The translations under genes and the position numbers were made by a program. From IMG/VR virus record IMGVR_UViG_3300006736_000024, positions 1 through 37,281 of that record: a DNA stretch of 37,281 nucleotides. One strand, 5' to 3'. The notes under the pieces were generated by a model that was not told the DNA's origin, made no database searches, and worked only from the letters and a program-made list of their open reading frames with translations. The DNA is from a virus. Shown in pieces: positions 2,586-25,292 of the stretch. Position 1 is the stretch's first letter; each line of letters opens with the position of its first letter.

Positions 2586-3006
2586 AATTGCCCTCATATG
2601 TATTGAATGAAATCATCGTCGCCGGTGCCGGCATATATAACTTGGCGGCATCGATGCGAACGATCTGCCGGTCATCTATATAGAGAACGCCATTAAGCGC
2701 ATCGGTCACCAACTTCACAAGGTTATCCAGATCGGGCGTCGATATATGCGGAACCCAGCCGGCGGCGGCATCTTCCCGTTTCGACTTGCGCCATGACTTG
2801 GGTATCTCAAATGCAAATGACAGCATGATCTGCACCGGGCCTTCGATCGGATCGTCCGACCATTCCAGCCCGACCAGATTGCGGATGCGCTCTTCAGCGG
2901 CGACAGTTTTCGGTGGTGTAAAGACATGACCTGATCGGCTCATGCGAGGCCGGCCCTTTGGCACCGGCTTGCCTTCGATGGTGAATGTCGCGATGGGCTG
3001 GGTCAT
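2575..3006 (-). CDS. rusA: RusA-family Holliday junction resolvase
   Basis: A 143-residue protein, close to the usual RusA length. It shows the family's N-terminal GKPVPKGRPR motif (residues 12-21). The acidic metal-binding residues are in PDLDN (91-95) and DD (111-112), with conserved basic residues between them. RusA-type endonucleases cut branched DNA during recombination and before packaging. Its start overlaps the stop of the cytosine methyltransferase gene (ATGA). Its 3' end overlaps the next gene by 11 bases. It probably works with the RecT/exonuclease pair encoded in the opposite operon. Confidence 0.9.
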   Translation of the reverse strand: MTQPIATFTIEGKPVPKGRPRMSRSGHVFTPPKTVAAEERIRNLVGLEWSDDPIEGPVQIMLSFAFEIPKSWRKSKREDAAAGWVPHISTPDLDNLVKLVTDALNGVLYIDDRQIVRIDAAKLYMPAPATMISFNTYEGNYVR

Positions 3007-3881
3007 GCTTCCGCCTCTAGTATGGCGGCGCCGATCTCCGCGATCAGAGCCGGCACCACCGCATTACCTAGTCCTTTAATTCTGTGTACCCGATTGGGTA
3101 CCCCATAAGCCACTCTATCCACGTTGGGTTCAGCGGGCCATCTGTAATGTGTCGAAGCTGGGGCGTCTGCTTCTTGTCGCCGTGATCGTAGCCGGCGCCA
3201 CTCCGGTAGTCGGCAAAGCCCGGCGTCGGCAACAGGTTGCCCATCATGTGTACTTGTTCCGGCAGATTGGTCGCGAACCCTGTCTTGTCGGTTGCCGCCT
3301 TCGCCGATGCCCGGTTCGTCGCACCTTTGTGATCGGCGGCTCGCGGCGTCAGAATTATAGGCGATGACAAAAGTGCGCGCTCTGATGTGAGGGGCATCGA
3401 TACCGATAGCTGGAAGCACGAATGATTGGCTGGTGTAGCCAGCTTCCGCCAAGTCAGATAGACACTGGTCGAGGCCCATTGGTTCCGAAACAAAGCCTCT
3501 GACATTTTCAACAATGGCCCATCTAGGTTTAACAGCGGCAATAACTCTATACATTTCCGGCCAGAGGTTTCGGTCATCCGCCGCGCCTCTTCGCTGGCCG
3601 GCGACACTGAATGGCTGGCAGGGCGGTCCACCGATGATGACATCAGCGCCAGCAAATCCGGCGGCGTCGAAGGTCTTGATATCGTCATGGATTGGTACCC
3701 CAAAAAAATTATGGGCAAGCACCTGGCGCCCGTACCGATCTATTTCAACGAACTGAATTGTGCGAAATCCGCCGGTCATTTCCAGGCCAAGGGACATTCC
3801 CCCGATGCCGCTGAAGAGATCAAGTACCGTGAGCATTTGATGATAGTATCGCAGCTTTGGTGCGGCCCGGTAGATGTTCAT
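3003..3881 (-). CDS. C5 cytosine DNA methyltransferase
   Basis: A 292-residue protein with the ordered motifs of C5 methyltransferases. They are DLFSGIGG for SAM binding (motif I), GGPPCQPFS with the catalytic cysteine near residue 88 (motif IV), VENVRGF (motif VI), HIRARTF (motif VIII), and KGLGNAVVP near the end (motif X). It transfers a methyl group to cytosine carbon 5. The target-recognition region between motifs VIII and X is short, so the site cannot be read from it. I chose ATG 3881 for its AGAGGA site; ATG 3836 is an alternative, just before motif I. It overlaps the 3' end of the RHH gene by 62 bases. It probably protects phage DNA from host restriction; I see no partner endonuclease of a restriction system. 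Confidence 0.93.
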   Translation of the reverse strand: MNIYRAAPKLRYYHQMLTVLDLFSGIGGMSLGLEMTGGFRTIQFVEIDRYGRQVLAHNFFGVPIHDDIKTFDAAGFAGADVIIGGPPCQPFSVAGQRRGAADDRNLWPEMYRVIAAVKPRWAIVENVRGFVSEPMGLDQCLSDLAEAGYTSQSFVLPAIGIDAPHIRARTFVIAYNSDAASRRSQRCDEPGIGEGGNRQDRVRDQSAGTSTHDGQPVADAGLCRLPEWRRLRSRRQEADAPASTHYRWPAEPNVDRVAYGVPNRVHRIKGLGNAVVPALIAEIGAAILEAEA

Positions 3882-4011
3882 GCAGCGCATCCTCTATGAT
3901 GCTGGTCGCGGTGCAGCCCTCTTGTTTAGAGATCAGTCTGAGCGCGTCCAGAAGGGATGGCTCCAGCCTGATGGCGTACATCTGTTTTTTGTCTTGAATA
4001 ATTTTGTTCAC
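3820..4011 (-). CDS. Ribbon-helix-helix transcriptional regulator
   Basis: A 63-residue protein that looks like an Arc/MetJ/CopG-type ribbon-helix-helix DNA-binding protein. It has a short beta strand (MYAIRLEP), then a helix (SLLDALRLISKQEG), then the second helix (TATSIIEDALHEHL). The GTG start at 4011 lies about 25 bases from the divergent promoter region; ATG 3981 is the alternative. It is the first gene of the leftward operon and faces the palindrome at 4039-4048. It is therefore a good candidate for a repressor of both itself and the rightward promoter. It ends inside the methyltransferase gene in another frame. Confidence 0.75.
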   Translation of the reverse strand: MNKIIQDKKQMYAIRLEPSLLDALRLISKQEGCTATSIIEDALHEHLPGRTKAAILSSNAHGT

Positions 4012-11199: not shown

Positions 11200-12869
11200 T
11201 ATCTATACCCCACAATTGCGTCACCGGCATCGAAGGTATCAACGCCATTCAACCTGACCGTTGTTATACCGGCACTACCGGAACCAAGGTCATGTTCACC
11301 GCCCATGATCTGCCCACGGGACGAACCCATATCAGTTCCCGCTGATGCTATCCAACCATGATTAGTGGTGTCATAGAGGTACAGACAGATGGTTAAATTC
11401 TTAAATGTACCGGCGTGGTCATTGTACAGGACATAGCCAGATGTTGAATTAGTGGCGAAGGGTCCAGAGGCACTATCGGTCATTGTCGAGTTGGACACAT
11501 ACCCTGTTGTATCTACACCACCGGCATCGCCAATCTGTATCAGCCAATCGTTGGTGCCATTAGTGGAGCAGCCCTTGGTAAATAAGTAAATCTCAGTTGC
11601 CGTTGTCGGCACGGTAAAATCTTTCGCGGTGCCTGATGCTGTTGCTTGGGAAGCTGTAAGAGTAAGAGTACCACCCCCCGCATCCTCAAACGTGGGGGGA
11701 GCGCCAGCGCCGCCGCTGGTGAGAACTTGACCCGACGTTCCCGGCCCGACAAACACCGGCAAGCCGGAGGCGTCATAGCTGAGGATCACGCCATCGGTGC
11801 CGACTGCGCTGTCGGTCCACAATTCTCCCAGCGCCCTCTTGATGCCAACCAAGGTGTACTTGCCTGTCGCGTGTTCGATGAACCAGAGATGGTCGCCGGC
11901 AGCGGTGGTGATATTCTTGGATGCGGGCAATACGATATTGTCGCCATCGTGGGTGAAGACAACCGCTACATCAGTTTGCAGCAAGACCACATTTCCGACA
12001 GCGGTTGTCGCCATAGATGTCACGGTATCGACGCCTGTGGTGATGTCAAAATAGTTGCCATCGGTCAGAAGAGGTAGCGCGTTGGCGCAGACAACATCGG
12101 CACCTTTGCTCCACTGCATCTGAAACGAGTTGCCCGACAGTGGACCGCCAAGTTGTGGCGTGAGATCGTCAACCAGATCGCTCATGTCGCCGGCGCCGGC
12201 GTCACCTTGGGCGCCTTTCTGCGCGACCAATTCCCATTTCAGCGCGGCTAGGTCGGTGGCAAAAGTTCCAGAGGTATGGGCAACAATGCAGATATAGGAC
12301 GATCCAGAGTTGCTAACAACGTCATTCAAAACGTATGCCGTCGAGGTAACCCACGCGCCCTGCCAGTTGCCGATGGTGGTGGTCAACTCGACATTGCCGC
12401 TGGCATCAAAACCAAAAGTCTTGTTCGCCCGATCGACCGATGACGGTAGTTCGCTGGTCAGGCTGGCATCGGATACCGGGAACACCAGCGCCCGGTCGAG
12501 TACCTCTTGTATTTCGTTGCCGATCATCGCCAGCCTATCCAGCGCCGCCTCATGGGTATCTGCCGCGAAGGCATCGTTGGTGACATAGTCGGTTAGCTGC
12601 GTTTTGGTAGTGGTCCGCCGGATATGCCATTCAAGTGTCGCCGCCGGCGCGGATACCGCGATCACCGTGCCGGTCGATCCATTGCCGCCGGTGACCGTGT
12701 AATGCGTCGAGTAGGTCTTAACCGTTTCCACGCCGGTCGCGATGACCCGCTCGACCACTTCCAGTTCCGCCGTGGCGCCGGTGCCTTTGAAGGCAAAGAC
12801 GGTCGCGAAATCGGTGGTCGATGCATCGCCCGTATATGAGGTTTTGTTTGCAGTTGATGTCAGGGTCAT
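11199..12869 (-). CDS. Tail fibre protein, T7 gp17-like N-terminus
   Basis: A 556-residue fibre. The first 150 residues match the virion-anchoring domain of T7-type fibres, including SYTGDASTTDFATVFAFKG and a segment ending HEAALDRLAMIGNEIQEVLD. A shaft region follows, with a short Gly-containing linker (QKGAQGDAGAG) and the TPQLGGPLSGN motif seen in many phage fibres. The Gly/Ser/Thr-rich C-terminal 200 residues should form the receptor-binding tip. It attaches to the tail and recognises the host. It overlaps the upstream gene by four bases (ATGA). Confidence 0.88.
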   Translation of the reverse strand: MTLTSTANKTSYTGDASTTDFATVFAFKGTGATAELEVVERVIATGVETVKTYSTHYTVTGGNGSTGTVIAVSAPAATLEWHIRRTTTKTQLTDYVTNDAFAADTHEAALDRLAMIGNEIQEVLDRALVFPVSDASLTSELPSSVDRANKTFGFDASGNVELTTTIGNWQGAWVTSTAYVLNDVVSNSGSSYICIVAHTSGTFATDLAALKWELVAQKGAQGDAGAGDMSDLVDDLTPQLGGPLSGNSFQMQWSKGADVVCANALPLLTDGNYFDITTGVDTVTSMATTAVGNVVLLQTDVAVVFTHDGDNIVLPASKNITTAAGDHLWFIEHATGKYTLVGIKRALGELWTDSAVGTDGVILSYDASGLPVFVGPGTSGQVLTSGGAGAPPTFEDAGGGTLTLTASQATASGTAKDFTVPTTATEIYLFTKGCSTNGTNDWLIQIGDAGGVDTTGYVSNSTMTDSASGPFATNSTSGYVLYNDHAGTFKNLTICLYLYDTTNHGWIASAGTDMGSSRGQIMGGEHDLGSGSAGITTVRLNGVDTFDAGDAIVGYR

Positions 12870-15800
12870 TGCGTTAGCCTCTGCTTGCGATCATTCATAA
12901 TCTTATCTTGCAACCTCTCCAGATCAGGTGCGTGTTTGCTCCGCTTGAATAGCCATGCCCGCGCCGCCTTCCTTGAATTATAGAAGACGTTCTTGATGGC
13001 AATCTTCTTTGCCTCATCGCTGGCGCGTTTGTAATTTCTAGCACGTTTCGTTCTTGGGTTATCCACGATTACCGTGGCGAGGTTCTCTGCCGCCGCTTTG
13101 CCGGCAGCAACCGAATAATCATAGAACTGTTCCGGCGATAGCTTTATATCGACAGATGTATCTGCGCCAGCGCCGGTCGATCCCGGCATGATATCGCTGG
13201 GACCACCGATGCCAAGGCGCAGCCGGTGCAATTCATCATCCAGCCTATTCGGTTTATCGACGCCGCCGAACACAGAGTTGTGCATCATATGCCGGCCCCA
13301 CAGATCAACTCTAGGCTGGAGCGTATCCGACCAGCCCGGCGTATCCTGTTTCAGCGCATCCAGTAGCCCTCTGGTGTATCGCAATTCTGGATCGACCATA
13401 TGCTCCACCATTGCGCCCGCTCTAGGCATGATGGTCCGAACAAAGTTATTTATGGTCGCCGGCCCATACCGGTCGGGGTTCTCAAGTAGATCGATCAGAT
13501 TGCTGAAGCCTTCCATATAGGTCTTGCTGGTGACGTTCTTTGTCAGCGCCATTGCCAGCGATGCGACGATCTTATCGTACTGTTCGCGATCGATTGCCTC
13601 ATTGCCGATCTCCGACAGATCAGCCGCGATGCCGATCACGGTAGCGAATGGCTCGATCCTCTTGTACGGCAGATAGTGGAACTTGCCATCGGCAATCGGT
13701 ATCTTGAAGCTGTATGGCTTCCAGCCCTGCCGGGTCAGGTTGGCTCTTAGTTTGGGATCGGTCGGCCCGCCGCCAGTGATGCTGCCGGCTTGAGCAAAGC
13801 CGCCTACCGTCACCATCGTTGCCGTACCCAGCGCGATCCTCGCCTTTGCCAGATCAGCCGCTTCGCCGCCTTCAGCAATTGCCAGCCGAAACTTTTGGCT
13901 AAGACCAGCCATCGGCGTGTATTCCCATGCCGTCGATATGATATTCGCCGGTGTCTTCAAGAACGGAATAAACCACCGTATGAAACCATTGGCCGCGATG
14001 CCCTGCGCCTTCTGACCGAATTCGCCAAGCTGCCCGGTGAACGTCACCATCTGACCAAAGTCGATCGATGCTTGTTGTGTCGCGGCGGTTGGGTTTGCAA
14101 TGCGGTGCGCCAGCGCATCGGTGAAGTTATCGGTGACGCCGACCGCACCTTCGCCGAACTCGACCACAGTTTCACGCCATGCCCGCGCATATGTCTCCAT
14201 GCGCTGGCCTAGCACCTTGAAGAAAACATCGCCCGCCGCCAGCCCGCGTGTCGATACGCGGCCAAGGGTCAGCAATGAGCCGGCGACATCAAATGCGTTT
14301 CCGACCAGCCCGGCCTTCTCCATACCTTCGGCAGAAAACGCCCTTGGCCGAAATTTTTTGCCCGGCTCGACCTTCGCCATGATCTCGCCGGTCGGGTCTT
14401 TGAAGACTGCCCCTGCCATGCGGAAAGCATCCTTCATTGCCATCTTCCAAGCGAACATCATCGCGGTGCCTTCGCCGCCGCGCACTCCATTATTATCCCC
14501 GGTCTTTGCTCGACGCGCCCGCGCCATGATGCCGGCAGTGCCGCGCACTACCGTCTGGCCGGTCATATGTAAAAGGTTCGAAATCAGATTGACCATATGC
14601 GTGATCGGGCTGGATAGCAGACCGTTGATCCATGCTTCATACAAAGCATCGGCAGACCTAGCCGCGAATGATTTCTGCAAAAACACCGCCCGCTTGGCAG
14701 GGTCTTCAAGGGACAGATACATCGACGCCCGCTGCCGCGCCAGATCAACGCCGCCATTGTTGGCAATCAGTGCTTCGATGTTCTGGTTCCGCAAAGCATC
14801 GCCGCCCACGCCGATATTAAATGATGATAGTGTCCTCGCGATCTCTGTCTGCGCTCCTTTGATCTTGGCTTGCAATGCAACGTGCAGGGCTGATTGTCGC
14901 TGCATGGCGACGATCGCTTCATCCATGCTCTGGAAGCCGGCAGCGGTCAGGTTCTCGACCTTCCCATCTTGCACTAGCTTGGCAAGGGTATCGACCTTTT
15001 GTGCGGACCAGACCATCAGATCGCGGGCGGCTAACATATTCGCGGCCAGTTCGCCGGGCGATCCACTTTGGATCAGCTTCCCGCCTAAAATCTTTTTGGT
15101 AAGCTGACCTGGCGATCCTCCAACCAGATCGGCGAGATGCTTTGTAACTGACTGCTTGATAACGCCGCCTGTCTCTGCCGCGATCTCTGCCGCATAGACT
15201 TGGGACCGCGATGCGATGACCGCCAAGGCATCCTGATCAGTTTCGATGCGGCCAGAATTGAAGTCATCCAGCGCCGAAAATGGCGTGTCGGTGGTGAACC
15301 TCTTATAGACCTCGTTTACCTCAGTCTCTTTGGGTCCATCGATCCTGACCTCGACCTCTTTATCTACCCTGCCGACCGCCGCCGCATCGGTGCCGACCTG
15401 TGCCGGGTCCGATGTCGCCGACAGTGGGGCCGGCTGTTCCGGTGCCGGCGGCGGCACTTCTGGTGCTACCCTGCCCTCTGGCACATAGTCGGGATGGCCG
15501 GGTATATCTCTGGTATCGATGCCATCGGCACCGAACGGCACCCGTCCCTGTGCATCGCCCGGCACCTGAGTGCCATCAGGTAGCCGTTGCCCATCCGGCC
15601 CCACAGGCGTATCCGCTGCCGGCGCTGGGTTGTGTCCCGGCGGAACACCGCCCGGCTCGATGCCGCCATTGGTGATGTCTGGCACCGCTTCGCCTTCGGC
15701 TGATCCAGGGCGCGTGAACTTGCCCTGATCGTCCAGCTTTCTCAGCGCACCTCTGAATGCTTTGGTTACGCCAGACTTGAACATCCCGGCGACCTCGACG

Positions 15801-15934
15801 CCGCTGCCCGGCGCATCGCTGGCAGGGATAGCGGCAGGGTCTTCCGGCAATGGGATATCGCCATCAAAAAAGCCCGGCGTTAAATCTTCTGCCGGGCTTT
15901 CTGTTTGTGGTGAAACGGTAGGGTCAAGTGCCAT
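12866..15934 (-). CDS. Large internal virion / DNA-ejection protein
   Basis: A 1022-residue protein. Residues 1-200 are Pro/Gly/Asp-rich and probably disordered. The rest is helical, with an NGLLSSPITHMVNLISN motif (438-454) that recurs in very large phage core or polyvalent proteins. Moderately hydrophobic stretches follow, for example FIRWFIPFLKTP. Its place after the gp15-like protein and before the fibre matches T7 gp16, which spans the envelope during DNA entry. I do not see a transglycosylase motif. Codons 12-23 form a perfect terminator-like hairpin (separate entry). It overlaps the previous gene by 11 bases. Confidence 0.75.
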   Translation of the reverse strand: MALDPTVSPQTESPAEDLTPGFFDGDIPLPEDPAAIPASDAPGSGVEVAGMFKSGVTKAFRGALRKLDDQGKFTRPGSAEGEAVPDITNGGIEPGGVPPGHNPAPAADTPVGPDGQRLPDGTQVPGDAQGRVPFGADGIDTRDIPGHPDYVPEGRVAPEVPPPAPEQPAPLSATSDPAQVGTDAAAVGRVDKEVEVRIDGPKETEVNEVYKRFTTDTPFSALDDFNSGRIETDQDALAVIASRSQVYAAEIAAETGGVIKQSVTKHLADLVGGSPGQLTKKILGGKLIQSGSPGELAANMLAARDLMVWSAQKVDTLAKLVQDGKVENLTAAGFQSMDEAIVAMQRQSALHVALQAKIKGAQTEIARTLSSFNIGVGGDALRNQNIEALIANNGGVDLARQRASMYLSLEDPAKRAVFLQKSFAARSADALYEAWINGLLSSPITHMVNLISNLLHMTGQTVVRGTAGIMARARRAKTGDNNGVRGGEGTAMMFAWKMAMKDAFRMAGAVFKDPTGEIMAKVEPGKKFRPRAFSAEGMEKAGLVGNAFDVAGSLLTLGRVSTRGLAAGDVFFKVLGQRMETYARAWRETVVEFGEGAVGVTDNFTDALAHRIANPTAATQQASIDFGQMVTFTGQLGEFGQKAQGIAANGFIRWFIPFLKTPANIISTAWEYTPMAGLSQKFRLAIAEGGEAADLAKARIALGTATMVTVGGFAQAGSITGGGPTDPKLRANLTRQGWKPYSFKIPIADGKFHYLPYKRIEPFATVIGIAADLSEIGNEAIDREQYDKIVASLAMALTKNVTSKTYMEGFSNLIDLLENPDRYGPATINNFVRTIMPRAGAMVEHMVDPELRYTRGLLDALKQDTPGWSDTLQPRVDLWGRHMMHNSVFGGVDKPNRLDDELHRLRLGIGGPSDIMPGSTGAGADTSVDIKLSPEQFYDYSVAAGKAAAENLATVIVDNPRTKRARNYKRASDEAKKIAIKNVFYNSRKAARAWLFKRSKHAPDLERLQDKIMNDRKQRLTQ
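15866..15900 (-). terminator. Terminator-like hairpin inside the large virion gene
   Basis: On the minus strand, AAAGCCCGGC, a 12-base loop and GCCGGGCTTT form a perfect 10-base stem followed directly by more T (six Ts in a row). This is the form of an intrinsic terminator, placed at codons 12-23 of the 1022-residue gene. Translating ribosomes should melt it, so it would act when translation start is weak. Confidence 0.7.
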
Positions 15935-18338
15935 CTTCTGCCTCTGGGTTGCTCAGTTCTGGGAATGCTGCGCCGGCGAGGCCAAGTAGTACACCGATGA
16001 TCGCAAGCGGCGCCTCTTTGATAACACCAAAGCCGCACTTGGTACCGGGATCGGCAGCGCATCTACCATTGGTGCAACATACCCGGTTCACATAAGTTTC
16101 CCTAGCATGTTTATGAGCGGCGCCCTTGGGCGTCATGTTTTTCCATGTGTCGAGGTACGCCGATAAACCTTCTTCACCACCGAACTGCTTGAGTATCTGA
16201 TCGCGGCCTTCGGGCGGCGTGAATTCAGGATCATTCAGCTTGGCAAGAATGACCTTAGACAGCTTGTCAGTGCGGACGCCCTTGGGCGTAAAGTTGGTCT
16301 TGCCGTGATATAGTGTAATAACATCGATCAGCGGCGATCCATCGGGCATAGTCATCTTGCCGAATTCATCGATCTCAGCTTCATTCAATGCAACAGACCG
16401 GATGCGAAGATTGGGATACCGTTGCTTGGCAGCGATTGCCTTCTCAGCGGTCCAGGCATTCGATACATCAGTCGGCACCTTGTCCATCGACACATTTAAT
16501 CTAAGCGCCGGATGGTCGCCGAATTGTTCGACAAACTCTTCCGACTTTGTGATGGCTTTTATAAACAGACCGCGATCCAGTGCAGCGTCCAGGGTAGCCA
16601 AAACATTCTCACCATCGACGCCATCACGGTAGTCGCCGAATGAGAACATCCGCAACCCGCCATCTTGGTTGAATGCATCGATGACCGACTTGGGCATCTT
16701 GTTGAATGCATCGGGATCGAAGTTGTGTTCCAGCTTGTCGGTCTTCGCCTGTGCGCTGCCAAGGCCGGTATCCTCGACAGTGCCGCCGGCGGCGATTGCC
16801 TTGTCGCGCTCCTTATTAATAACGCGACCTTCATCAACGTAGCAGTAAAGGCATGACCCGGTATTGCATGACCGCTTGCCACAGGTGGTCGAGAAGTCAA
16901 CTGATGCGGCGGTCTTCTGGTTTTTGTGGATGAATTTGCCCTTGGGGTTGTTCCTGACCCACTTCATATATTCGATGCCAGCTTCATCCAGCCGGTCATC
17001 AAACTGCGCGGCAACGCCCGGCGCGATGTTGGGCGTACCCTTGGCATGGCTCTGGTCGGGCAGCTTCGCCAGCGCCCTCGACGCCTTCGCAGTATCGGCG
17101 ACTTGCTCTTCTGTCGAGGCAACGCGGAGAACATCCATCAGGTCGCCGTCTTCGATTGCTTCGATCAGTTCAGCCGACTTGGCCTGTGGTACAATAGGCC
17201 CGCCTGGCGCCGGCGCGGCCTTAACACCGCCCGGCGCGGCGGCATCTTCTAATTGATTATAGAACCGGGCGCCCTTAAGGCGCGGCGGCACCGCTCCAGC
17301 GCCATCAGAGATAACCGTGTCTTCGACAAACTTGAATAAGGCATCAACATCCTTGGGATCGACACTGATCTGCCCGTCCTCGATTTTTAATGACGGCACC
17401 GCTTCCAGTAATTCTTCACGGTTGGCGGCATTAGAAAAGAAATCATCGAAGAACCGTTGTTCTGGTCTAGTCAGCTTTACACCCGGCCCTGCTACGCCAC
17501 CCGCCGCCAACGTGCCGGCACTGCCGACATCGGCGCCGCTTAATGCCTTGGCGCCTTGTGCTATCTTGACAGCGGCGGCGGCTTCGATGTCGCCGGCCAG
17601 ACCAAGACCAAGCAACCGCCCAAATGAGCCGACTGTTTCATCGGTTTCTTCAGTGCGCTGGAATAGCTTCAATCTTCCATCATCATCCTTGAGGATGACA
17701 TGGTTGCCATCTTCGAAGTCCGACACTCTCTTTACATCGCCGCCATCGACCAGAACAAAAAAATCATCGCCCTCGCCGCCCTCTGGAATAAATTCTGTGG
17801 TGCCATTGGGAACGATGTCGCCAATGAAGGGCCGGTTATGCTCCTCTTCCCCCTGACCGATTGCGCGTAAAACCGGCGAGGTCTGTTGCAGCGCCGCGAT
17901 CAATTCTTGGGATTGAATGTTGTTCAGATTTTTGGCGGCGGCGGCGAACCCGGTCAGCTTCCCATCATCTGGCACAGCCTCATCAACCGGCGGCAATACA
18001 TCATCCACCGTTTCCGGCGCACCACTGGGCATCAGCCGGTTGGCGCCGGCCATCTGCCGTTGAATTGGCGTCATGCCGGCGAGGGCTGATTGTTCCGGCG
18101 TGGGCGGCGGCGCGTCCTCTTCACTCAGGATCACCTCATCCGGCGAATTGTCATCGCCGATACCGACCGTCTGGCGAACGCCTTCGACATCCCGCGTTTC
18201 GATGCTGTCGAACTTGGGTATGCTGAACATGACCTCGCCGGCGTCCATGCCGGCGTCCTCAAGTGCCTGCCACTCTTCGGTGCCGACCGCGTTAGCATGG
18301 CGGCGCTCTGTGGTATAGATGTCGGTGATGTCATCCAT
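15924..18338 (-). CDS. Internal virion protein with radical-SAM/Gp88-like cysteine domain
   Basis: An 804-residue protein in the internal-core gene cluster. Residues 1-440 are acidic and low in hydrophobic structure. From about 445 to 770 it resembles an iron-sulphur TIM-barrel enzyme. There is a four-cysteine cluster at 486, 491, 496 and 499 (C-x4-C-x4-C-x2-C, ending CLYCYVDEGR). Strand-like segments follow: GLRMFSFGDY (561-570), FIKAITKSEEFV (592-603), ALRLNVSMD (611-619), LRIRSVALNE (644-653) and DVITLYHGK (672-680). A second cysteine group lies at 754, 755, 760 and 768. This is the layout of radical-SAM-like phage Gp88 proteins, with spacing different from the usual CX3CX2C. A hydrophobic C-terminal segment (778-792) could insert in a membrane. 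Enzyme role is inferred; substrate unknown. Confidence 0.7.
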   Translation of the reverse strand: MDDITDIYTTERRHANAVGTEEWQALEDAGMDAGEVMFSIPKFDSIETRDVEGVRQTVGIGDDNSPDEVILSEEDAPPPTPEQSALAGMTPIQRQMAGANRLMPSGAPETVDDVLPPVDEAVPDDGKLTGFAAAAKNLNNIQSQELIAALQQTSPVLRAIGQGEEEHNRPFIGDIVPNGTTEFIPEGGEGDDFFVLVDGGDVKRVSDFEDGNHVILKDDDGRLKLFQRTEETDETVGSFGRLLGLGLAGDIEAAAAVKIAQGAKALSGADVGSAGTLAAGGVAGPGVKLTRPEQRFFDDFFSNAANREELLEAVPSLKIEDGQISVDPKDVDALFKFVEDTVISDGAGAVPPRLKGARFYNQLEDAAAPGGVKAAPAPGGPIVPQAKSAELIEAIEDGDLMDVLRVASTEEQVADTAKASRALAKLPDQSHAKGTPNIAPGVAAQFDDRLDEAGIEYMKWVRNNPKGKFIHKNQKTAASVDFSTTCGKRSCNTGSCLYCYVDEGRVINKERDKAIAAGGTVEDTGLGSAQAKTDKLEHNFDPDAFNKMPKSVIDAFNQDGGLRMFSFGDYRDGVDGENVLATLDAALDRGLFIKAITKSEEFVEQFGDHPALRLNVSMDKVPTDVSNAWTAEKAIAAKQRYPNLRIRSVALNEAEIDEFGKMTMPDGSPLIDVITLYHGKTNFTPKGVRTDKLSKVILAKLNDPEFTPPEGRDQILKQFGGEEGLSAYLDTWKNMTPKGAAHKHARETYVNRVCCTNGRCAADPGTKCGFGVIKEAPLAIIGVLLGLAGAAFPELSNPEAEDGT

Positions 18339-20071
18339 TATCCAGGTACGCCTCTGCCAGATTTTTTGTTTTCCTCTTCTGCTTTCCGCAACGCCTCTGC
18401 CGCATCGTCATTCTCTTTAACCAGCTTCCGCATTTCCTTTATCTTGGCAAAGATATCCTGTGCAGCGGCTGGCTTGATCTTCTTTCTCTTCAGCGCAGAA
18501 ACCGTGTTATCCAGTGCCTCATCCAGATGTTCGCTGGTGTAATCCGCCGGATCGATGCCCTTCGGCCCAAAGCGCAACTTTGTAAAGCTGGACAGGACGC
18601 GCCCGCCCGGTGCTGATCGATCGATAAGATCGCTTGCTACTTCCCAAGGATTATCGCCATCACGATTGACGCGGATATCATATTCCCGCAAGGCCGATTG
18701 TATCCTGATCGCCTTCTGACCATCCTTATCTTCAAGAAACGAGAACATCGCCGCGCCGGTCGATGTCACGCCCAGCGATCTTTCCAGCGTCCTTCTGGCT
18801 TGGAACTGAGGCGACTTTTTGAACGTATCATCCTTGGCCGTTTCCAGAAGTGAATATAGATGCTTGGCATCGCCGCCGGTCAATCTGGATCGCTCACCCG
18901 GCCCGCCAACCATGAATGCAATGTTGGCGCTCATCGCCTCGATTTCAGCTTGGCGCAAATCTTCCGGCAGATCGGCGATCGCATAAATTCTCTGCGACAT
19001 ATTAATAAACGCCGGCAGATCGGTCTTGGCTCCATCCAGCCCGGTCATTATCTTTTGCAGAGCAATGCCGTCCTTGCCTTCGATGTTCCCTATCTTCACC
19101 TGATCTTCGATCCAATCTGGCGACATCCTTGAAACCTGATCGGCCTGTTCATCGCTGGCTGTATTATCTTCGACAGCCAATGCTGAGACAATGTACGCCG
19201 CGCCGGTTTGCACCCGCGCCGTCTTTGCCGCCTTTTCCCGTGCCGTGTCGGCCTTGTCCAATGCCGATTGGATGCGGCTCATGTCGGTCAGAGCCTTTGA
19301 CTTGAATGTCGCCTTATCGGTCGCGTCGAGGCGATCCCATATAGCCTTGACCGGACCCGGCAATCCCTTACCATCCTCCTTCATCGCGTCAGAAATGCCT
19401 TCAAGGGTTTCGATGGCTTGGTTCCGGCCAAGATATCCGGCGATGCTTTGCTTGGCGAATGTCTCGCCAAATTTCATTATCCGATCGGCGGCGACCTTGG
19501 CATCGATGATGCCGGTGACTGCCAGATGCTTGATGCTGGCGATGCCCTGATCGAACATCTTCTGATGCAGGGTTCCATTGCTGGCGACGATCGGAGTATT
19601 GCCGGCGGCATTATTGATCGCATCGATGTTCAGTTTGTTGGTCGCATCGACCTGACCGATCGCCCGCTGGGTAGCTGCGCTGCGAAAGGCAACGGCAGAG
19701 GTCGCAGAGTTGCCTGCCCAATTTCTGTTGAACACCTGGCGGGCGGCGGGCGACAAAGTTGCGCCTAGTGTTTTGCCGATCTCTTTGGCGCGGGTATCAT
19801 ATTCAGCAACCGCATCCGGTAAACTCATGCCCTTCAATCGCTGATCATTATTCAGTGCGCCAAGCTGCCGGGCGGCTTCGCCGGTTGCCGTGCTTACACT
19901 CTCAGCCGTTTCGGCAGCGATGACCTTTTCGCCGATCTGTCCCAGCGCATTGCCAAAGTTCTGCATGGCATTGGTGATCAGGCTCTCGCCGGTGTCGGGC
20001 GTTTGCGGCGCGAAGGCAAGTGGCTGGCTTGATGCCCGCTGGTTCACTGTGGTGAGGTTGAACTTAGGCAT
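18338..20071 (-). CDS. Internal virion protein, T7 gp15-like position
   Basis: A 577-residue, mostly helical protein rich in Ala, Lys and Asp, with a charged, coiled-coil-like C-terminal 60 residues. It lies between the gp14-like and the radical-SAM-like core genes, in the place of T7 gp15, a core protein ejected into the periplasm. Sequence alone shows no enzyme motif. It couples to the next gene by TAATG. Assignment rests mainly on position, size and composition. Confidence 0.65.
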   Translation of the reverse strand: MPKFNLTTVNQRASSQPLAFAPQTPDTGESLITNAMQNFGNALGQIGEKVIAAETAESVSTATGEAARQLGALNNDQRLKGMSLPDAVAEYDTRAKEIGKTLGATLSPAARQVFNRNWAGNSATSAVAFRSAATQRAIGQVDATNKLNIDAINNAAGNTPIVASNGTLHQKMFDQGIASIKHLAVTGIIDAKVAADRIMKFGETFAKQSIAGYLGRNQAIETLEGISDAMKEDGKGLPGPVKAIWDRLDATDKATFKSKALTDMSRIQSALDKADTAREKAAKTARVQTGAAYIVSALAVEDNTASDEQADQVSRMSPDWIEDQVKIGNIEGKDGIALQKIMTGLDGAKTDLPAFINMSQRIYAIADLPEDLRQAEIEAMSANIAFMVGGPGERSRLTGGDAKHLYSLLETAKDDTFKKSPQFQARRTLERSLGVTSTGAAMFSFLEDKDGQKAIRIQSALREYDIRVNRDGDNPWEVASDLIDRSAPGGRVLSSFTKLRFGPKGIDPADYTSEHLDEALDNTVSALKRKKIKPAAAQDIFAKIKEMRKLVKENDDAAEALRKAEEENKKSGRGVPG

Positions 20072-20078
20072 TAAACAA

Positions 20079-20660
20079 TCACCTTGCTATCAAGTTAGTA
20101 CCGGCAACCGGCAAAATGTTCCCGCCCGCTGGGAATGGTGCCGCGCCTACTGTAGACGCACCCGGTGCCGGCGGCGCGATCGCCTGACTGAAGGCAAACC
20201 CTGACAGCGCCAGCGATGCGCCGGCGTTGATAAAGCCGGCAGTCATCGCATTCTTGCCCTGCGCCAGATATGCCGATGCCTCGTTGCGGAAACTGTCGGC
20301 CTTGAACCGATGCCCGGCGACCTCCTGATCGGTCTTGAATTGCTCACCAAGTTCCAGAACTGCGCCGGCAGTGGCATTGGCTACTTGGACCTCCAGCGGC
20401 GTACCCGATGCGACCTCGACGCCCGACGTCGCGATCGCAACAACATCTTCGGCCTCTTTGATTTGGTTTTGCCGGGCAACCCGCGATCGATTGACGGCAC
20501 CAACATTAGCTGCCGTCAGCGCATTAACATCAGACCGGGCGGCATTCTGCCTAGATATCTTAGCCCGCGCCTTGGCCGCGCTATTGGCATTAATGCCGCC
20601 GATGATCGATCCAGCGGCGGCAAGACCACCACCGATCAGAACAAGAGTAGGACTACACAT
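20079..20660 (-). CDS. Internal virion protein, T7 gp14-like
   Basis: A 193-residue protein starting Met-Cys, then a hydrophobic glycine-rich helix (LVLIGGGLAAAGSIIGG). An Ala/Arg/Gln-rich helical middle and a second hydrophobic stretch (AGASLALSGFAFSQAI) follow. Proteins of this size and shape after tail tubular protein B are the gp14-like core proteins, which form the outer-membrane part of the ejection channel. The start overlaps the tail tubular B stop (TAATG). Confidence 0.7.
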   Translation of the reverse strand: MCSPTLVLIGGGLAAAGSIIGGINANSAAKARAKISRQNAARSDVNALTAANVGAVNRSRVARQNQIKEAEDVVAIATSGVEVASGTPLEVQVANATAGAVLELGEQFKTDQEVAGHRFKADSFRNEASAYLAQGKNAMTAGFINAGASLALSGFAFSQAIAPPAPGASTVGAAPFPAGGNILPVAGTNLIAR

Positions 20661-23566
20661 TATCCATCACTTTCAATAACGCGGGTTATCAATGCCGATA
20701 CGGTCAGCGGCAGCGGCTGGTCTTGCACAATCATCACCTGACCTTCCCGATCCCAGCCGCCTCTGAACTTGACGATCTTGTCGCCATTGAAGAGCGGCGG
20801 CGAACTATCCATCGGGTCTGATCCATCGCGGAACTTTACTTCATCCAGATTGGCGGCATCGGGTCCGACCTTCATGCCCAGCGAATTGATCAGCCGAACG
20901 ATAATTTCGAACACCCTTTTCGGCTTGCCCATCGCAGTACCCTGCCCGGCACCGGCACCGACATTCGATCTCAGGCTCTTGATGGTGGTGGTATATCCCA
21001 GCCCGACCTTGGCCTTGGACACTGCCGGGTCAAGGCTCGATATTGAGCCAGACGATACTGCCTGATCAGACTGCACCGCCCCGTCGCCAAGTATCGAAAC
21101 CGTTTCGCCTTCCAGATGGTCGAGGCCAGATATGGCGGTGATCGCTTCCCGCGCCTCGCCGCCGGATGTATATGCCGTGTATGCCGTGCCATCGATCAGA
21201 AGGTACGCAATGCCGCCCGATGTATAGGTGGTGAAGGCACTGCTATCGACGCCGATCGTGAAATTATCGGCATCGACTTTGGTAATGGTATATGCGTTCC
21301 CGTTCAATTCGGTCATGCCGGCGACTTCAAGAAAACCGATTTCATCGCCGGTCGAAAAACCGTGAGCAACGCACTCAATGCTGCCGGGGTTTGCCCTTGT
21401 CGCGGCACTGACCGGCTTGCCGCTGGTATTCATCAGTTCGAATGTATTGGTCGCACTCTCAATAACGCGGAACCGGATATCATTGATTTCAGTCATGCCG
21501 GCGACATCTTCGATATCGACCAGATCGCCATCGGTCAGACCATGCGCCGCCGATGTAACCACCACCGGGTTCGCCGCTGTCGCGCCGGTGATCGTGAGTG
21601 GCGTATCCAAAGTCAGACCGCTGTCTACAAAGAAGGCGTCATCCTCTTTGGTATCGCCATCGTCGGCGTTGAAATTTGCTTGCAGCAATTCAACATACTG
21701 CCGGGCCACACTATTGACCGTTCGCTTGGTAATGAGCCAGACCTCATGCCGGGCGGTGCCGGGTATAATGGCGACACTGGTAACAACGCCATGTGTTGTG
21801 GTGCCGAACGATCCGCCCATCGGATGGCGGTGCCATGCGACCACTTGCTGATCGCGCAAGTAGGTCATGCCCAGCAACTGCCCATCGTTCCGGTAGCCCC
21901 AAACGATACTGTCGGGTTCCTGACCGTATGCGATCTCTTCGATACCGCCATAGCCGACCTGTTCCGATAGCAAGGTCAGATCGGGCGCTTGGTAGCTGTC
22001 ACTGTCGAACGTGTAGACGAACTCTCGCAGCTTCCGCTTCTGGCGCTGGATGAATAGCACCACATTATCGATACGCAATGCCGTCGATGTCGAGTTCGAT
22101 CCCCGCGTACCCTCTCTGACCACCCGCACATTGGTCGGCGTCAAAGCCTCGTTTCGGTTCGATGCCGACACAATGAATTCGCCGCCGGCGGTTCCAACCA
22201 CCATGACTTTTCCCGGCTGCAAGAACCTGATCACGTTCACCTGGTCCGATGCGATCGTATAAATTAGCGATGCATCAGCCAGAACGCCGGGCGTGTGATT
22301 TTCATAATCTGCCGACTTCGATCCCCATAGCGTCTGAGGCTCTTCGGTCGAGCCGGCCCAAAACAATCTCTGTTCATAGAAAGCAACGGTCGCCGGGTAG
22401 CCGGTGGTATCAGACCATGATCCCAGCCGCCATTTGGTGACCGCGCCGGTGCCGCCAAGATCATTGACGATATTGACCGTGACCACCGTAGTCGATGACC
22501 GGCTGGCTATGGTGCCGTATCCCCATTGGATGCCGCCGTCGAGAATGAATTTCCAAGTGACTGTGGCATCGACAATCTCATCGCCGGTGCCGCTTGGCCC
22601 GCCGGAACCGTCAGACGTTCCCGCGTGGATGCATTTATAGACATTGCCAGAATTGCGGACAACGTCATCGACCGAATAGGCGGTGGTCGCCGCCCATGCC
22701 GTCGCCTGATGACCGATGCGGATCAGCCGGCCCACATCGGTGGTCTGGAACCCATCGCCGCCATTGATGCCAGTAACCGCCGATGCGGTGACCGTGACGC
22801 CGCTGCCGGTGGTCGCACCCGGTGTCATTGTGGTGGTGGTGGTGTTCTCATCCTGATATGGCCCATCGGTGAAATCGATGGTGGTCAGGGTCCATGATGT
22901 ATGACCCGTCCGCTCCAGTTTGCGCGGTGCATAAGACTGATGCGCCAGATAAAGTATGTCGGCAGACTGAGCGTGTTTGATCGATGACAGATCGGCCTTG
23001 GCATAAGTGGTGGTAAGCTGATGAACCTTGGCGGCGGTGCCGGCGGAACTGTAAGCGGTGAAGCCGGTGCCATCGATATTGGTGCCATCGATGTCGGTCA
23101 GTTCGAAGTCATTGGCATTCTTGTTGGCGACCAGATAATACTTGCCGTTCAATTCGGTCATGCCGACAACATCGGCGATGAAAACTTCATCGCCGTCTGA
23201 ATAGCCATGCCCGGTGTCGGTGATTACCACCGGGTTGGCTTGCGTTGCCCCGCTGATGGTGGTGGTGCTTTCCAAAATCGAGCCTTGATCCTTATAGAAC
23301 CGGAAATATAAATCGCCGGCTTCGATCACATAAGCTTGGGTTGTCGAGAATTCAAACGGGAGCAACCGCGTAGCATCAGCGCTAGTCTTGACCTCCTTGA
23401 TGAACTTGGAACCGGATCGCCGATGCGCCGCGCCATGCGGAAACACCAGTGCATTTTCCAGTGTCTCAGCCGCGTTCTTGTATTTCTCAAGATCGGGCCG
23501 GCCATACAGCTTATTGCTGACCTCGCCGGCAGTAAAGTTGGTTTGGATATCGGCGGTGCGAGGCAT
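20660..23566 (-). CDS. Tail tubular protein B-like (tail nozzle)
   Basis: A 968-residue tail protein. It has the tail-tubular-B type start (FTAGEVSNKLYGRPDLEKYKN, split here after 'YGRPD', residues 11-31) and a LENALVFPHGAAHRRSGSKF segment. It probably forms the distal nozzle of the short tail and contacts the fibre. Three repeat units of about 75 residues, each with an H-G-x-x-x-G-D pattern then V-x-G-M-T-E-[LI]-N, are inserted: one near 103-180 and two in tandem near 650-785. They resemble the FCCH-type insert domains found in some phage tail proteins. The start follows the previous TAA directly. Confidence 0.85.
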   Translation of the reverse strand: MPRTADIQTNFTAGEVSNKLYGRPDLEKYKNAAETLENALVFPHGAAHRRSGSKFIKEVKTSADATRLLPFEFSTTQAYVIEAGDLYFRFYKDQGSILESTTTISGATQANPVVITDTGHGYSDGDEVFIADVVGMTELNGKYYLVANKNANDFELTDIDGTNIDGTGFTAYSSAGTAAKVHQLTTTYAKADLSSIKHAQSADILYLAHQSYAPRKLERTGHTSWTLTTIDFTDGPYQDENTTTTTMTPGATTGSGVTVTASAVTGINGGDGFQTTDVGRLIRIGHQATAWAATTAYSVDDVVRNSGNVYKCIHAGTSDGSGGPSGTGDEIVDATVTWKFILDGGIQWGYGTIASRSSTTVVTVNIVNDLGGTGAVTKWRLGSWSDTTGYPATVAFYEQRLFWAGSTEEPQTLWGSKSADYENHTPGVLADASLIYTIASDQVNVIRFLQPGKVMVVGTAGGEFIVSASNRNEALTPTNVRVVREGTRGSNSTSTALRIDNVVLFIQRQKRKLREFVYTFDSDSYQAPDLTLLSEQVGYGGIEEIAYGQEPDSIVWGYRNDGQLLGMTYLRDQQVVAWHRHPMGGSFGTTTHGVVTSVAIIPGTARHEVWLITKRTVNSVARQYVELLQANFNADDGDTKEDDAFFVDSGLTLDTPLTITGATAANPVVVTSAAHGLTDGDLVDIEDVAGMTEINDIRFRVIESATNTFELMNTSGKPVSAATRANPGSIECVAHGFSTGDEIGFLEVAGMTELNGNAYTITKVDADNFTIGVDSSAFTTYTSGGIAYLLIDGTAYTAYTSGGEAREAITAISGLDHLEGETVSILGDGAVQSDQAVSSGSISSLDPAVSKAKVGLGYTTTIKSLRSNVGAGAGQGTAMGKPKRVFEIIVRLINSLGMKVGPDAANLDEVKFRDGSDPMDSSPPLFNGDKIVKFRGGWDREGQVMIVQDQPLPLTVSALITRVIESDG

Positions 23567-24127
23567 TTAAAGTCTGCTATCCAGCCATGATTGCTCATTC
23601 GCCGACAGACTTTCTTGGGCATCGACCAGCCGCGCCTCTGCCAGCCGGCGCAGATATTGCGTTTCGGCGGTGGATGCCAATGCCGCATTTGCCGTCAGGT
23701 CATATGCCAGATCGGATGCGATGCGGGCCGCGTATGCCTCGACAAACTTGGCATCGAATAGCGTGGGATCAGTCACCTTGTCGATATAGACGATCTCCAG
23801 CGGCGCTGCCTGATCGGAAACGATCTTCTGACCCTCGACCGCCCATTCTTCGGTGGTGTTGACTTCGATAATTCTTAGGCATCCGGTCGGCCAAGAATAG
23901 GCATTCGTATATTCCCATATCGGTGCTGTGGTATCGGCGGCGATCGATACCCTCTTCAGCGCAAAGTTCCAAGGATGATCGCGCAGGGTCTGGTCCCGCG
24001 CCTGTTCATAGATGCGGTTACAGGCGCGGCCTTCTTTCGTATCATCGACCAGATCGGTGATTGGCTCTGCGCCCAGCCAAGTCAATGCCCGATTGCAGAT
24101 GGATACGATGGTTGAGGTATCAGTCAT
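23567..24127 (-). CDS. Tail tubular protein A-like (adaptor/gatekeeper)
   Basis: A 186-residue protein with the family's usual start: IVSICNRALTWLGAEPITDL, then GRACNRIYEQARDQTLRDHPWNFA (positions about 27-52, conserved NRIYEQARD and HPWNFA). It forms the ring joining portal and nozzle. Its length is normal for the family. It overlaps the methyltransferase-fusion gene by eight bases upstream and abuts the nozzle gene downstream. Confidence 0.88.
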   Translation of the reverse strand: MTDTSTIVSICNRALTWLGAEPITDLVDDTKEGRACNRIYEQARDQTLRDHPWNFALKRVSIAADTTAPIWEYTNAYSWPTGCLRIIEVNTTEEWAVEGQKIVSDQAAPLEIVYIDKVTDPTLFDAKFVEAYAARIASDLAYDLTANAALASTAETQYLRRLAEARLVDAQESLSANEQSWLDSRL

Positions 24128-25292
24128 CTTGCCTCACAAAAAAAAGTCCATTGTCGCGCATGAAGTCTCGCCCCATTGTCGATGCCTTGCGGATGGCGTG
24201 GGTTGCTTCGGCATCCCAAGACCAACCGGCCATTTCGAATTTATCAATCCAATAGTTTCGGTTCTGGCAATTCACATGGCGATGTCCCGGCGTACCGGGC
24301 GGTGCAAACGTGATCAGCGCCGACTTCGCCATCGCAAATGTCGCCATGTAATTATCGATATATTGCTCTTCAACGTGTTCGACAAATTCCACCGACCATG
24401 CCAGATCGAACTCTTTATTGTCGATCCCCAGCGAACCCTTGGTGTAATCGTGAACGATCGTCGGAGCGCGGCGCTCCATGACTTCGCCGTCGATGCCCAG
24501 CCCATCCATCTGGAAAGTATCGTGGGCATATTCCAACATGCCACCGGTCCCGCATCCGATATCGATCATCGACTGCACCCGCCGGTTATCGATCAGCCAC
24601 TCAAGCGCACCATGATCGATATGGCAGCGCCCGAACGATCCACCAAGATGATCCGGCGTTTCCGTTGCCGCCGGCTTGGTTTGCATATCAACATACGGCT
24701 TTACGATGTAGCCATAAAATTGTTCAAGCACCATCAGGTCAGCATCGAGTAGCGGGCTGGCCGGGCAGATCACAACATTCATGCCGCGCCCTTGGCAGTA
24801 TCCCAGCCAGTAGGACATACAGGCCATGTACCGGGCGACCGTTTCCGATTGCCGGGGATGCATCCGGCCCATGCCGCCATACAGATAATCGCAGCCGAAT
24901 ATGGTCAGTTCCTTGACGCCGATCAGCGCCGCATAAGCTGCGATGTAGCTGACCGATCCATTGAAGTACGGTCGAGCGCCCGGCATGTTCAGAACCTCTT
25001 CCAGAGGATATGCCAGCGCCTTCGGGTTCCTTGGTTGCGATGTAAAGAACGGTTCCTGAGTAGTCTGAAACCATTGTGCGAATGCCGGCGTCCGGTTGAC
25101 GCATGTGAGATAATCGTCCATCGCAAATGACAGATCGACATTGATCACCGCGCCGGCGGCGTTCACGCCCCAGACTTCGTCATGGTCGATGACCACAGCG
25201 TCTGATGACATGATGTCCATGTATTCTGACTTGGATGGGCCAAGGCCGACCAAGATAACCTTCTCAGGCACTTTGCCTGTCGGATGCTCCAT
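24120..25292 (-). CDS. Maf/DUF115-like domain fused to SAM methyltransferase
   Basis: A 390-residue two-domain protein. Residues 10-200 start KVILVGLGPSKSEYMD and include VWGVNAAGA and TIFGCDYLYGG. They resemble the DUF115/Maf-type (6-hydroxymethylpterin pyrophosphokinase-like) fold linked to surface glycan or nucleotide-sugar chemistry. Residues 225-390 form a class I methyltransferase: the SAM loop is IDIGCGTGG (243-251), with an acidic residue after strand 2 (GID near 268) and a SVEFVEHVEEQ helix (300-310). It lies between capsid and tail genes, just after a terminator hairpin, with GGGGGAAAG before its ATG. It might modify a virion protein or a host surface sugar; target is unknown. Confidence 0.75.
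   Translation of the reverse strand: MEHPTGKVPEKVILVGLGPSKSEYMDIMSSDAVVIDHDEVWGVNAAGAVINVDLSFAMDDYLTCVNRTPAFAQWFQTTQEPFFTSQPRNPKALAYPLEEVLNMPGARPYFNGSVSYIAAYAALIGVKELTIFGCDYLYGGMGRMHPRQSETVARYMACMSYWLGYCQGRGMNVVICPASPLLDADLMVLEQFYGYIVKPYVDMQTKPAATETPDHLGGSFGRCHIDHGALEWLIDNRRVQSMIDIGCGTGGMLEYAHDTFQMDGLGIDGEVMERRAPTIVHDYTKGSLGIDNKEFDLAWSVEFVEHVEEQYIDNYMATFAMAKSALITFAPPGTPGHRHVNCQNRNYWIDKFEMAGWSWDAEATHAIRKASTMGRDFMRDNGLFFVRQDD

Follow-up and report, generated by a model that had tools for sequence, protein, structure and literature searches.

The closest described systems are the ejection proteins of T7-type podoviruses and the phage polyvalent proteins. In phage T7, gp14, gp15 and gp16 (internal virion proteins B, C and D) leave the head via the tail; gp16-C has been placed in the host cytoplasm, and the enzyme activity of gp16-N, a lysozyme domain, is periplasmic (PMC8954989). 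Polyvalent proteins are proposed to be injected together with the DNA (Iyer et al. 2017, PMC5512222). Here we report a radical-SAM-like (SAM, S-adenosylmethionine) domain in P0001, an 804-residue protein of the ejection (internal virion protein) cluster of the virus IMGVR_UViG_3300006736_000024 (IMG/VR; positions 1 to 37,281, the 37,281-nucleotide stretch analysed here and called the window). The gene, at the positions that a sequence-only reading of the window had listed, is an open reading frame with an ATG start (15924..18338, minus strand; all window features given below lie on this strand). We lean towards the view that P0001 carries a radical-SAM-type enzyme domain, is packaged and ejected, and acts early on a target in the host or on the incoming DNA.

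The domain covers residues ~466-772 (16023..16943), as delimited by a 16-member family alignment (A4), in which conservation was scored, by AlphaFold and by a Foldseek search with a family member. P0001 has cysteines at 486, 491, 496, 499, 754, 755, 760 and 768 and no others, and in each of four podoviral proteins (P0001 and three relatives) all eight lie inside the domain; P0002 and P0003, encoded on either side of P0001, contain none. The N-terminal motif C486-X9-C496-X2-C499, which includes C491 and reads CxYCYV at its end (16842..16883), has three cysteines common to all 16 members (C486, C496, C499), and C491 is found in 4 of the 16, only in podoviral members. All four cysteines of the C-terminal group (C754 C755 x4 C760 x7 C768 G; 16035..16079) are present in 16/16. 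At column 764 the 12 members without Cys at 491 have Cys, and the four podoviral C491 carriers have Pro; this reciprocal change, a single clade event, has the pattern that a moved metal ligand would give. Three further motifs follow: GGLRMFSFGDY after strand 2 (residues 560-570; 16629..16661; G560, G561, R563 and D569 invariant), KAITK in strand 3 (residues 594-598; 16545..16559; K594, I596, T597 and K598 invariant) and NVSMD in strand 4 (residues 615-619; 16482..16496; S617 and D619 invariant). D481, Y498, R505, N557, R647 and H678 are likewise identical in 16/16 members.

AlphaFold, run with the family alignment, gave models of P0001 residues 440-804 (predicted local distance difference test, pLDDT, 80; predicted template modelling score, pTM, 0.79) and of a stand-alone family member, L020 (pLDDT 87, pTM 0.87). 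Both models have the arrangement beta1 - Cys loop - (alpha-beta)5, a six-strand beta/alpha barrel. In P0001, strand 1 (477-480) precedes the cysteines, and five strands (562-564, 593-597, 612-617, 644-650 and 673-676) follow with helices between them. The sequence-only reading had pointed to both cysteine groups, to RMFSFGDY (563-570) and LRLNVSMD (612-619), and to five strands in TIM-barrel (triosephosphate isomerase barrel) order after the first group; all of these are present, the barrel is predicted in both proteins, and the cysteines are kept in homologues, so that neither outcome named in that reading as a refutation came about, with the reservation that conservation of the N-terminal cluster extends to C486, C496 and C499 in all members and to C491 in the four podoviral ones only.

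The best match of the L020 model in the PDB (Foldseek) was the PFL-activating enzyme (3cb8; E 2.9e-4, prob 1.00, TM 0.51/0.48), and further matches were viperin (5vsl/5vsm, prob 1.00) and the radical SAM epimerase EpeE (8ai4, prob 0.98-0.99), with generic TIM barrels interleaved among them. The L020 protein matched the Radical_SAM hidden Markov model (HMM) PF04055 over 132 residues, from the Cys motif to strand 4 (E 3.6e-7; 24.6 bits, curated cut-off 29.5), and one family member matched Radical_SAM at 2.1e-5. We call the fold radical-SAM-like because of these structural matches and the sub-cut-off profile match. The P0001 model bears a helical insertion and a tail, and its structure search was less specific than that with the compact L020 model; among viral models it matched an unnamed giant phage protein (E 1e-6), AslB-type iron-sulphur (Fe-S) oxidoreductases and GP88-labelled proteins.

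P0001 had no match in Pfam, PHROGs, NCBIfam or the PDB sequences, and its relatives show that the domain constitutes a new family. Iterative searching found podoviral ejection-cluster members (L001, 820 aa; L005, 768 aa; L016, 989 aa), stand-alone phage or bacterial members of about 220-245 aa (L006, L007, L020, L024 and also L060), a 607-aa phage protein (L037) and long phage proteins of 1.6-2.6 thousand residues, some of them cut by contig ends (L017, L018, L019, L021, L022, L023, L034). The fusion for which the sequence-only reading proposed a search in related phages exists in three podoviruses, and also in giant polyvalent-type proteins. Within the giants, Pfam identified LPD38 (L018, L021, L022), ART-PolyVal (L019, L021) and methyltransferase-like segments (L018, L022), and nothing over the domain itself. 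A tblastn search of 50,697 phage records with the whole of P0001 or two family members returned only Moorella phage MTATph1, whose 231-aa stand-alone protein is without the second Cys of the CC pair and otherwise has the full set. The family is rare in bacteria, with 1/296 and 2/299 sampled genomes positive, the seed genome included in each count.

Two features of the giant proteins were recorded in passing. In L018, L019, L021, L022 and L023 a conserved block with (H/E)EFG(E/Y)FA stands directly before the domain, and it is possibly a degenerate metallopeptidase of the sort that polyvalent proteins are proposed to carry. The giant frame of L034 (6502-14189) seems to be interrupted just upstream of the domain, a 483-aa frame being followed by an overlapping frame of 2084 aa; the split may be real or may stem from an error in sequencing.

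Nonsynonymous and synonymous divergence (dN and dS) was computed between the window phage and L001. The domain had a dN of 0.079 and a dN/dS of about 0.04, which makes it, among the late segments compared, the one under the strongest constraint: the dN of the other late proteins was 0.23 (tail A), 0.26 (tail B), 0.71 (gp14), 0.89 (P0002) and 1.05 (P0003). Identity between the L001 domain segment and P0001 is 86-90%; in the linker (387-439) preceding the domain it has already dropped to 62%, and the first 386 residues of P0001 have no counterpart in L001. Recent horizontal transfer was considered as the source of so similar a domain in a diverged neighbourhood and is disfavoured by dS, as synonymous sites are near saturation throughout the late genes and the domain (dS about 1.8) resembles the tail genes in this respect; strong constraint thus explains the identity better. 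The arrangement seen in P0001 is not due to chance: relatives outside the podoviral group gave BLASTP E values of 1e-20 to 1e-24, and the low dN/dS marks strong purifying selection on the domain.

Like the radical SAM superfamily (PF04055; PFL-activating enzyme, viperin, EpeE), the domain has a predicted (beta/alpha)6 barrel, a partial TIM barrel, and a Cys group after strand 1 that ends in CxPhiC, here the CxYC pair of the three conserved cysteines. In our reading, the motif order CxPhiC - F(S)xGD - ITK - VSxD corresponds to the radical SAM Cys motif, the GGE-type loop and the beta4 region. Unlike the superfamily, the domain has CX9CX2C spacing in P0001 (CX8CX2C or far longer loops in other members), an extra invariant C-terminal Cys set, and a place in ejection or polyvalent-type proteins.

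GP88 proteins (PF17338) share with the domain a Cys motif followed by a strand ending in D and by YTK, and GP88-labelled viral models are among those closest to the P0001 model in Foldseek (A0A514K2X2, BFVD, with prob 1.00 but E 3.7e-3). Membership by sequence is rejected, as the GP88 profile matched neither P0001 nor any other member of the alignment and an hhalign comparison of the domain with five GP88 proteins gave prob 0.4%. The GP88 genes fetched also differ in context, encoding hypothetical proteins near the genome ends of pelagiphages and mycobacteriophages, with no virion fusions; unstudied entries in the databases already include large phage proteins with GP88-labelled domains (rank 19 in the viral model search). 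Of the original label "radical-SAM/Gp88-like", the first half is borne out by the Foldseek and sub-cut-off HMM matches of the stand-alone member, and the second is right at most at the level of fold, given the absent GP88 matches and the failed profile comparison. Several bacterial proteins (L040, L044, L045, L048-L051, L054), which we take to be DUF5131-like (Gp37/Gp68-type), have C-x6-C-x2-C-Y, LTK and VSVE in the same order as the domain. In hhalign the Cys motif, xTK and VSxD came into register (E 5e-4 but probability 31%); unlike the domain, these stand-alone cellular or prophage proteins are without the C-terminal CC...C...C set. The Pfam GP88 model matches the same DUF5131-like proteins at E 1e-3 to 1e-6, which suggests that GP88 and DUF5131 are related families.

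P0001 lies in a late structural run with the order portal, scaffold-position protein, capsid, tail A, tail B, gp14-like protein, P0003, P0001, P0002 and fibre. Overlaps with both neighbours make it part of this run: the P0003 stop and the P0001 start have 1 base in common, and the end of P0001 runs into the start of P0002. P0003 (577 aa; 18338..20071) occupies the gp15 position and has 24% identity to its relative in L001; the gp14-like internal virion protein (20079..20660; phrog_418 E 1.5e-15, Pfam T7_gp14 E 2e-5, just under the cut-off) is encoded two genes upstream of P0001. Directly downstream, P0002 (1022 aa; 12866..15934) is a homologue of gp16/internal virion protein D (phrog_6651 E 7.8e-41) and matches internal virion protein D in 78 phage records. 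The T7-type order tailB - gp14 - gp15 - gp16 - fibre is thus present with homologues; the locus differs from T7, whose type of enzyme cargo is a transglycosylase/lysozyme (PMC8954989), in having one more protein, with a predicted metal-site barrel, between the positions of gp15 and gp16.

The same gene order is found in L001, and L005 and L016/L027 have those parts of it that their contigs cover. On L030, the contig of L019, the genes run from tail B through a gp14-like protein (phrog_418 E 3e-23) and a protein in the gp15 position to a 2540-aa domain-bearing protein and a fibre related to that of the window; the 2540-aa protein fills the place of P0001 and P0002 together, and the domain is in the gp16 position there. 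HTVC028P, MEP301, ProddE and CRP-403 have a P0002 homologue without the domain, which is an optional module of the ejection apparatus. LPD38 and/or ART-PolyVal link the giants L018, L019, L021 and L022 to the polyvalent proteins as described in PMC5512222, and these four contain at least two domains of disparate activity in one polypeptide; in P0001, by contrast, just one enzyme-like domain is recognised, and the gp16-like part is a separate protein.

The N-terminal half of P0001 (residues 1-386; 17181..18338) had no detectable relatives when these were sought in viral contigs and is unlike the N-termini of L001, L005 and L016; L001 and L005 share theirs with each other, and that of L005 has a weak match (E 0.0017) to phrog_6651, a family of internal virion proteins. 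Directly after the domain, the family alignment and AlphaFold place a hydrophobic helix, APLAIIGVLLGLAGAAF (residues 776-792; 15963..16013), the most hydrophobic 17-residue stretch in P0001. The corresponding tail stretch occurs in three podoviral relatives and not in the stand-alone forms.

In the mechanism we propose, C486, C496 and C499 would hold a [4Fe-4S] cluster for SAM cleavage, and C754/C755, C760 and C768, together with C491 in place of the family's fourth C-terminal Cys, would likely form a second metal site. P0001 would be packaged into the core of the head and, on ejection, enter the host together with the gp14/gp15/gp16-type proteins. As the tail leaves no room for a folded barrel, the protein would pass through it unfolded and cluster-free and then refold in the host, with which the cysteine-free ejection neighbours are consistent. 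The refolded domain could take a cluster from the host ISC/SUF machinery, find SAM and reductant in the cytoplasm and, early in infection, modify a target in the host or in the incoming DNA. The ART and methyltransferase modules of the giant relatives suggest host take-over or protection of the incoming DNA. More broadly, it is possible, and we propose it tentatively, that a whole family of radical-SAM-type enzymes travels in phage particles as ejection or polyvalent modules, each threaded through the tail as an unfolded apo-protein, loaded with iron-sulphur clusters in the host and active on a host or DNA target before any phage gene expression.

Several other genes in and around these clusters were observed. 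In Methylophilales phage MEP301 (L009 8836-14119) the gp16-like protein is split over the overlapping genes gp24 and gp23, both of which match P0002. The tail tubular B-like protein of the window (20660-23566) is longer than its L001 counterpart and contains E1_FCCH repeats (E 1e-35) and a CBM_5_12-like insert (E 3e-5). Between the capsid and tail genes, a 390-aa protein (24120-25292) has a weak C-terminal match to SAM methyltransferases, preceded by an unrelated N-terminal domain. The window also encodes a Mom-family DNA modification protein (1310-2041; PF25680 E 5e-21) and a C5-cytosine methylase (3003-3890; E 2e-42), and the presence of both in one phage makes DNA hypermodification possible.

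The ejected-enzyme reading draws on the computed fold, motif order, Cys conservation, purifying selection, cluster position and reuse in giant proteins, and several results weigh against it. P0001 itself matches neither the Radical_SAM nor the GP88 HMM, its model retrieves mostly generic TIM barrels from the PDB, with viperin at rank 16, and its domain does not have the canonical CX3CX2C spacing. Exceptions to this spacing are known among radical SAM enzymes, e.g. ThiC and HmdA. As the spacing deviates and SAM cleavage is only predicted, we do not claim certified membership of the superfamily. The placement of P0001 in the virion is inferred from synteny with T7-type ejection genes. Comparisons by hhalign and hmmsearch did not bear out a common ancestry of P0002 and the LPD38-bearing ends of the giants; the two are connected by synteny alone. 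Delivery to the cytoplasm is not guaranteed, since the T7 lysozyme domain is periplasmic, and fusion to a virion protein may be just one of the ways in which the domain is used, since the stand-alone members and the GP88/DUF5131-type proteins are not obviously virion proteins.

The main rival is that a radical-SAM-type enzyme acts late in the producing cell, its target being, for instance, a protein of the virion or the DNA that is about to be packaged, and that the fusion only places the domain at the assembling head. A late gene in a structural cluster, the Mom and C5 methylase genes of the window and stand-alone relatives that probably work inside the infected cell all suit this account, and a folded, cluster-bearing enzyme could work before packaging without the unfolding that exit through a podovirus tail demands. 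We nevertheless regard it as unlikely, because the domain recurs in giants with ART-PolyVal and LPD38, a class proposed to act on entry (PMC5512222), and because the Mom and methylase genes lie elsewhere and are not known to accompany any other member. Action of the ejected domain while the DNA enters, within the periplasm or at the inner membrane, finds a precedent in the periplasmic activity of T7 gp16-N (PMC8954989), and a hydrophobic helix directly follows the domain in P0001 and its podoviral relatives. We consider this account very improbable in view of the chemistry involved. SAM, reductant and the Fe-S assembly machinery are cytoplasmic, and to our knowledge radical SAM chemistry in the periplasm is unprecedented.

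Two further accounts dispense with radical chemistry. The barrel and its cysteines might form a metal-stabilised structural or DNA-binding module, given the non-canonical Cys spacing, the weak PDB match of the P0001 model and the many virion proteins that are structural; the tail-tip protein gpL of phage lambda, with its structural [4Fe-4S] cluster, also speaks for this. Such a module would hardly be expected to keep invariant non-Cys positions in its barrel loops (R563, D569, K594, T597, K598, S617, D619, R647, H678), to exist as stand-alone 220-245 aa forms in unrelated phages and bacteria, or to be held at a dN/dS of 0.04 while its structural neighbours diverge freely, and we rate it as improbable. 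We are equally sceptical, if anything more so, that the likeness to radical SAM proteins is superficial and that the barrel belongs to an Fe-S or zinc enzyme with a different, SAM-independent chemistry: generic TIM barrels do score nearly as well in the structure search, and CX9CX2C spacing and eight cysteines are unusual, but the Radical_SAM match of a stand-alone member, the identity of the top Foldseek matches and the parallel motif order all favour radical SAM chemistry.

Transglycosylases, ADP-ribosyltransferases and RNA polymerases are known or proposed as virion-delivered phage enzymes. Enzyme cargo ejected from the virion is already known as a kind. A radical-SAM-type domain would be a cargo that the phage literature searched does not report; nothing relevant on a virion or injected radical SAM or iron-sulphur protein appeared there. 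The terms radical, iron, Fe-S, SAM and TIM barrel are absent from the main text of the 131-domain polyvalent survey (PMC5512222). If the ejected-enzyme reading is true, a cofactor-dependent class would be added to the virion-delivered enzymes, and the way in which an iron-sulphur enzyme comes through a phage tail intact, or is rebuilt afterwards, would become directly testable. A domain of giant phage proteins that is named by no library model would thereby gain a function, and GP88-like early phage genes would be tied to virion cargo.

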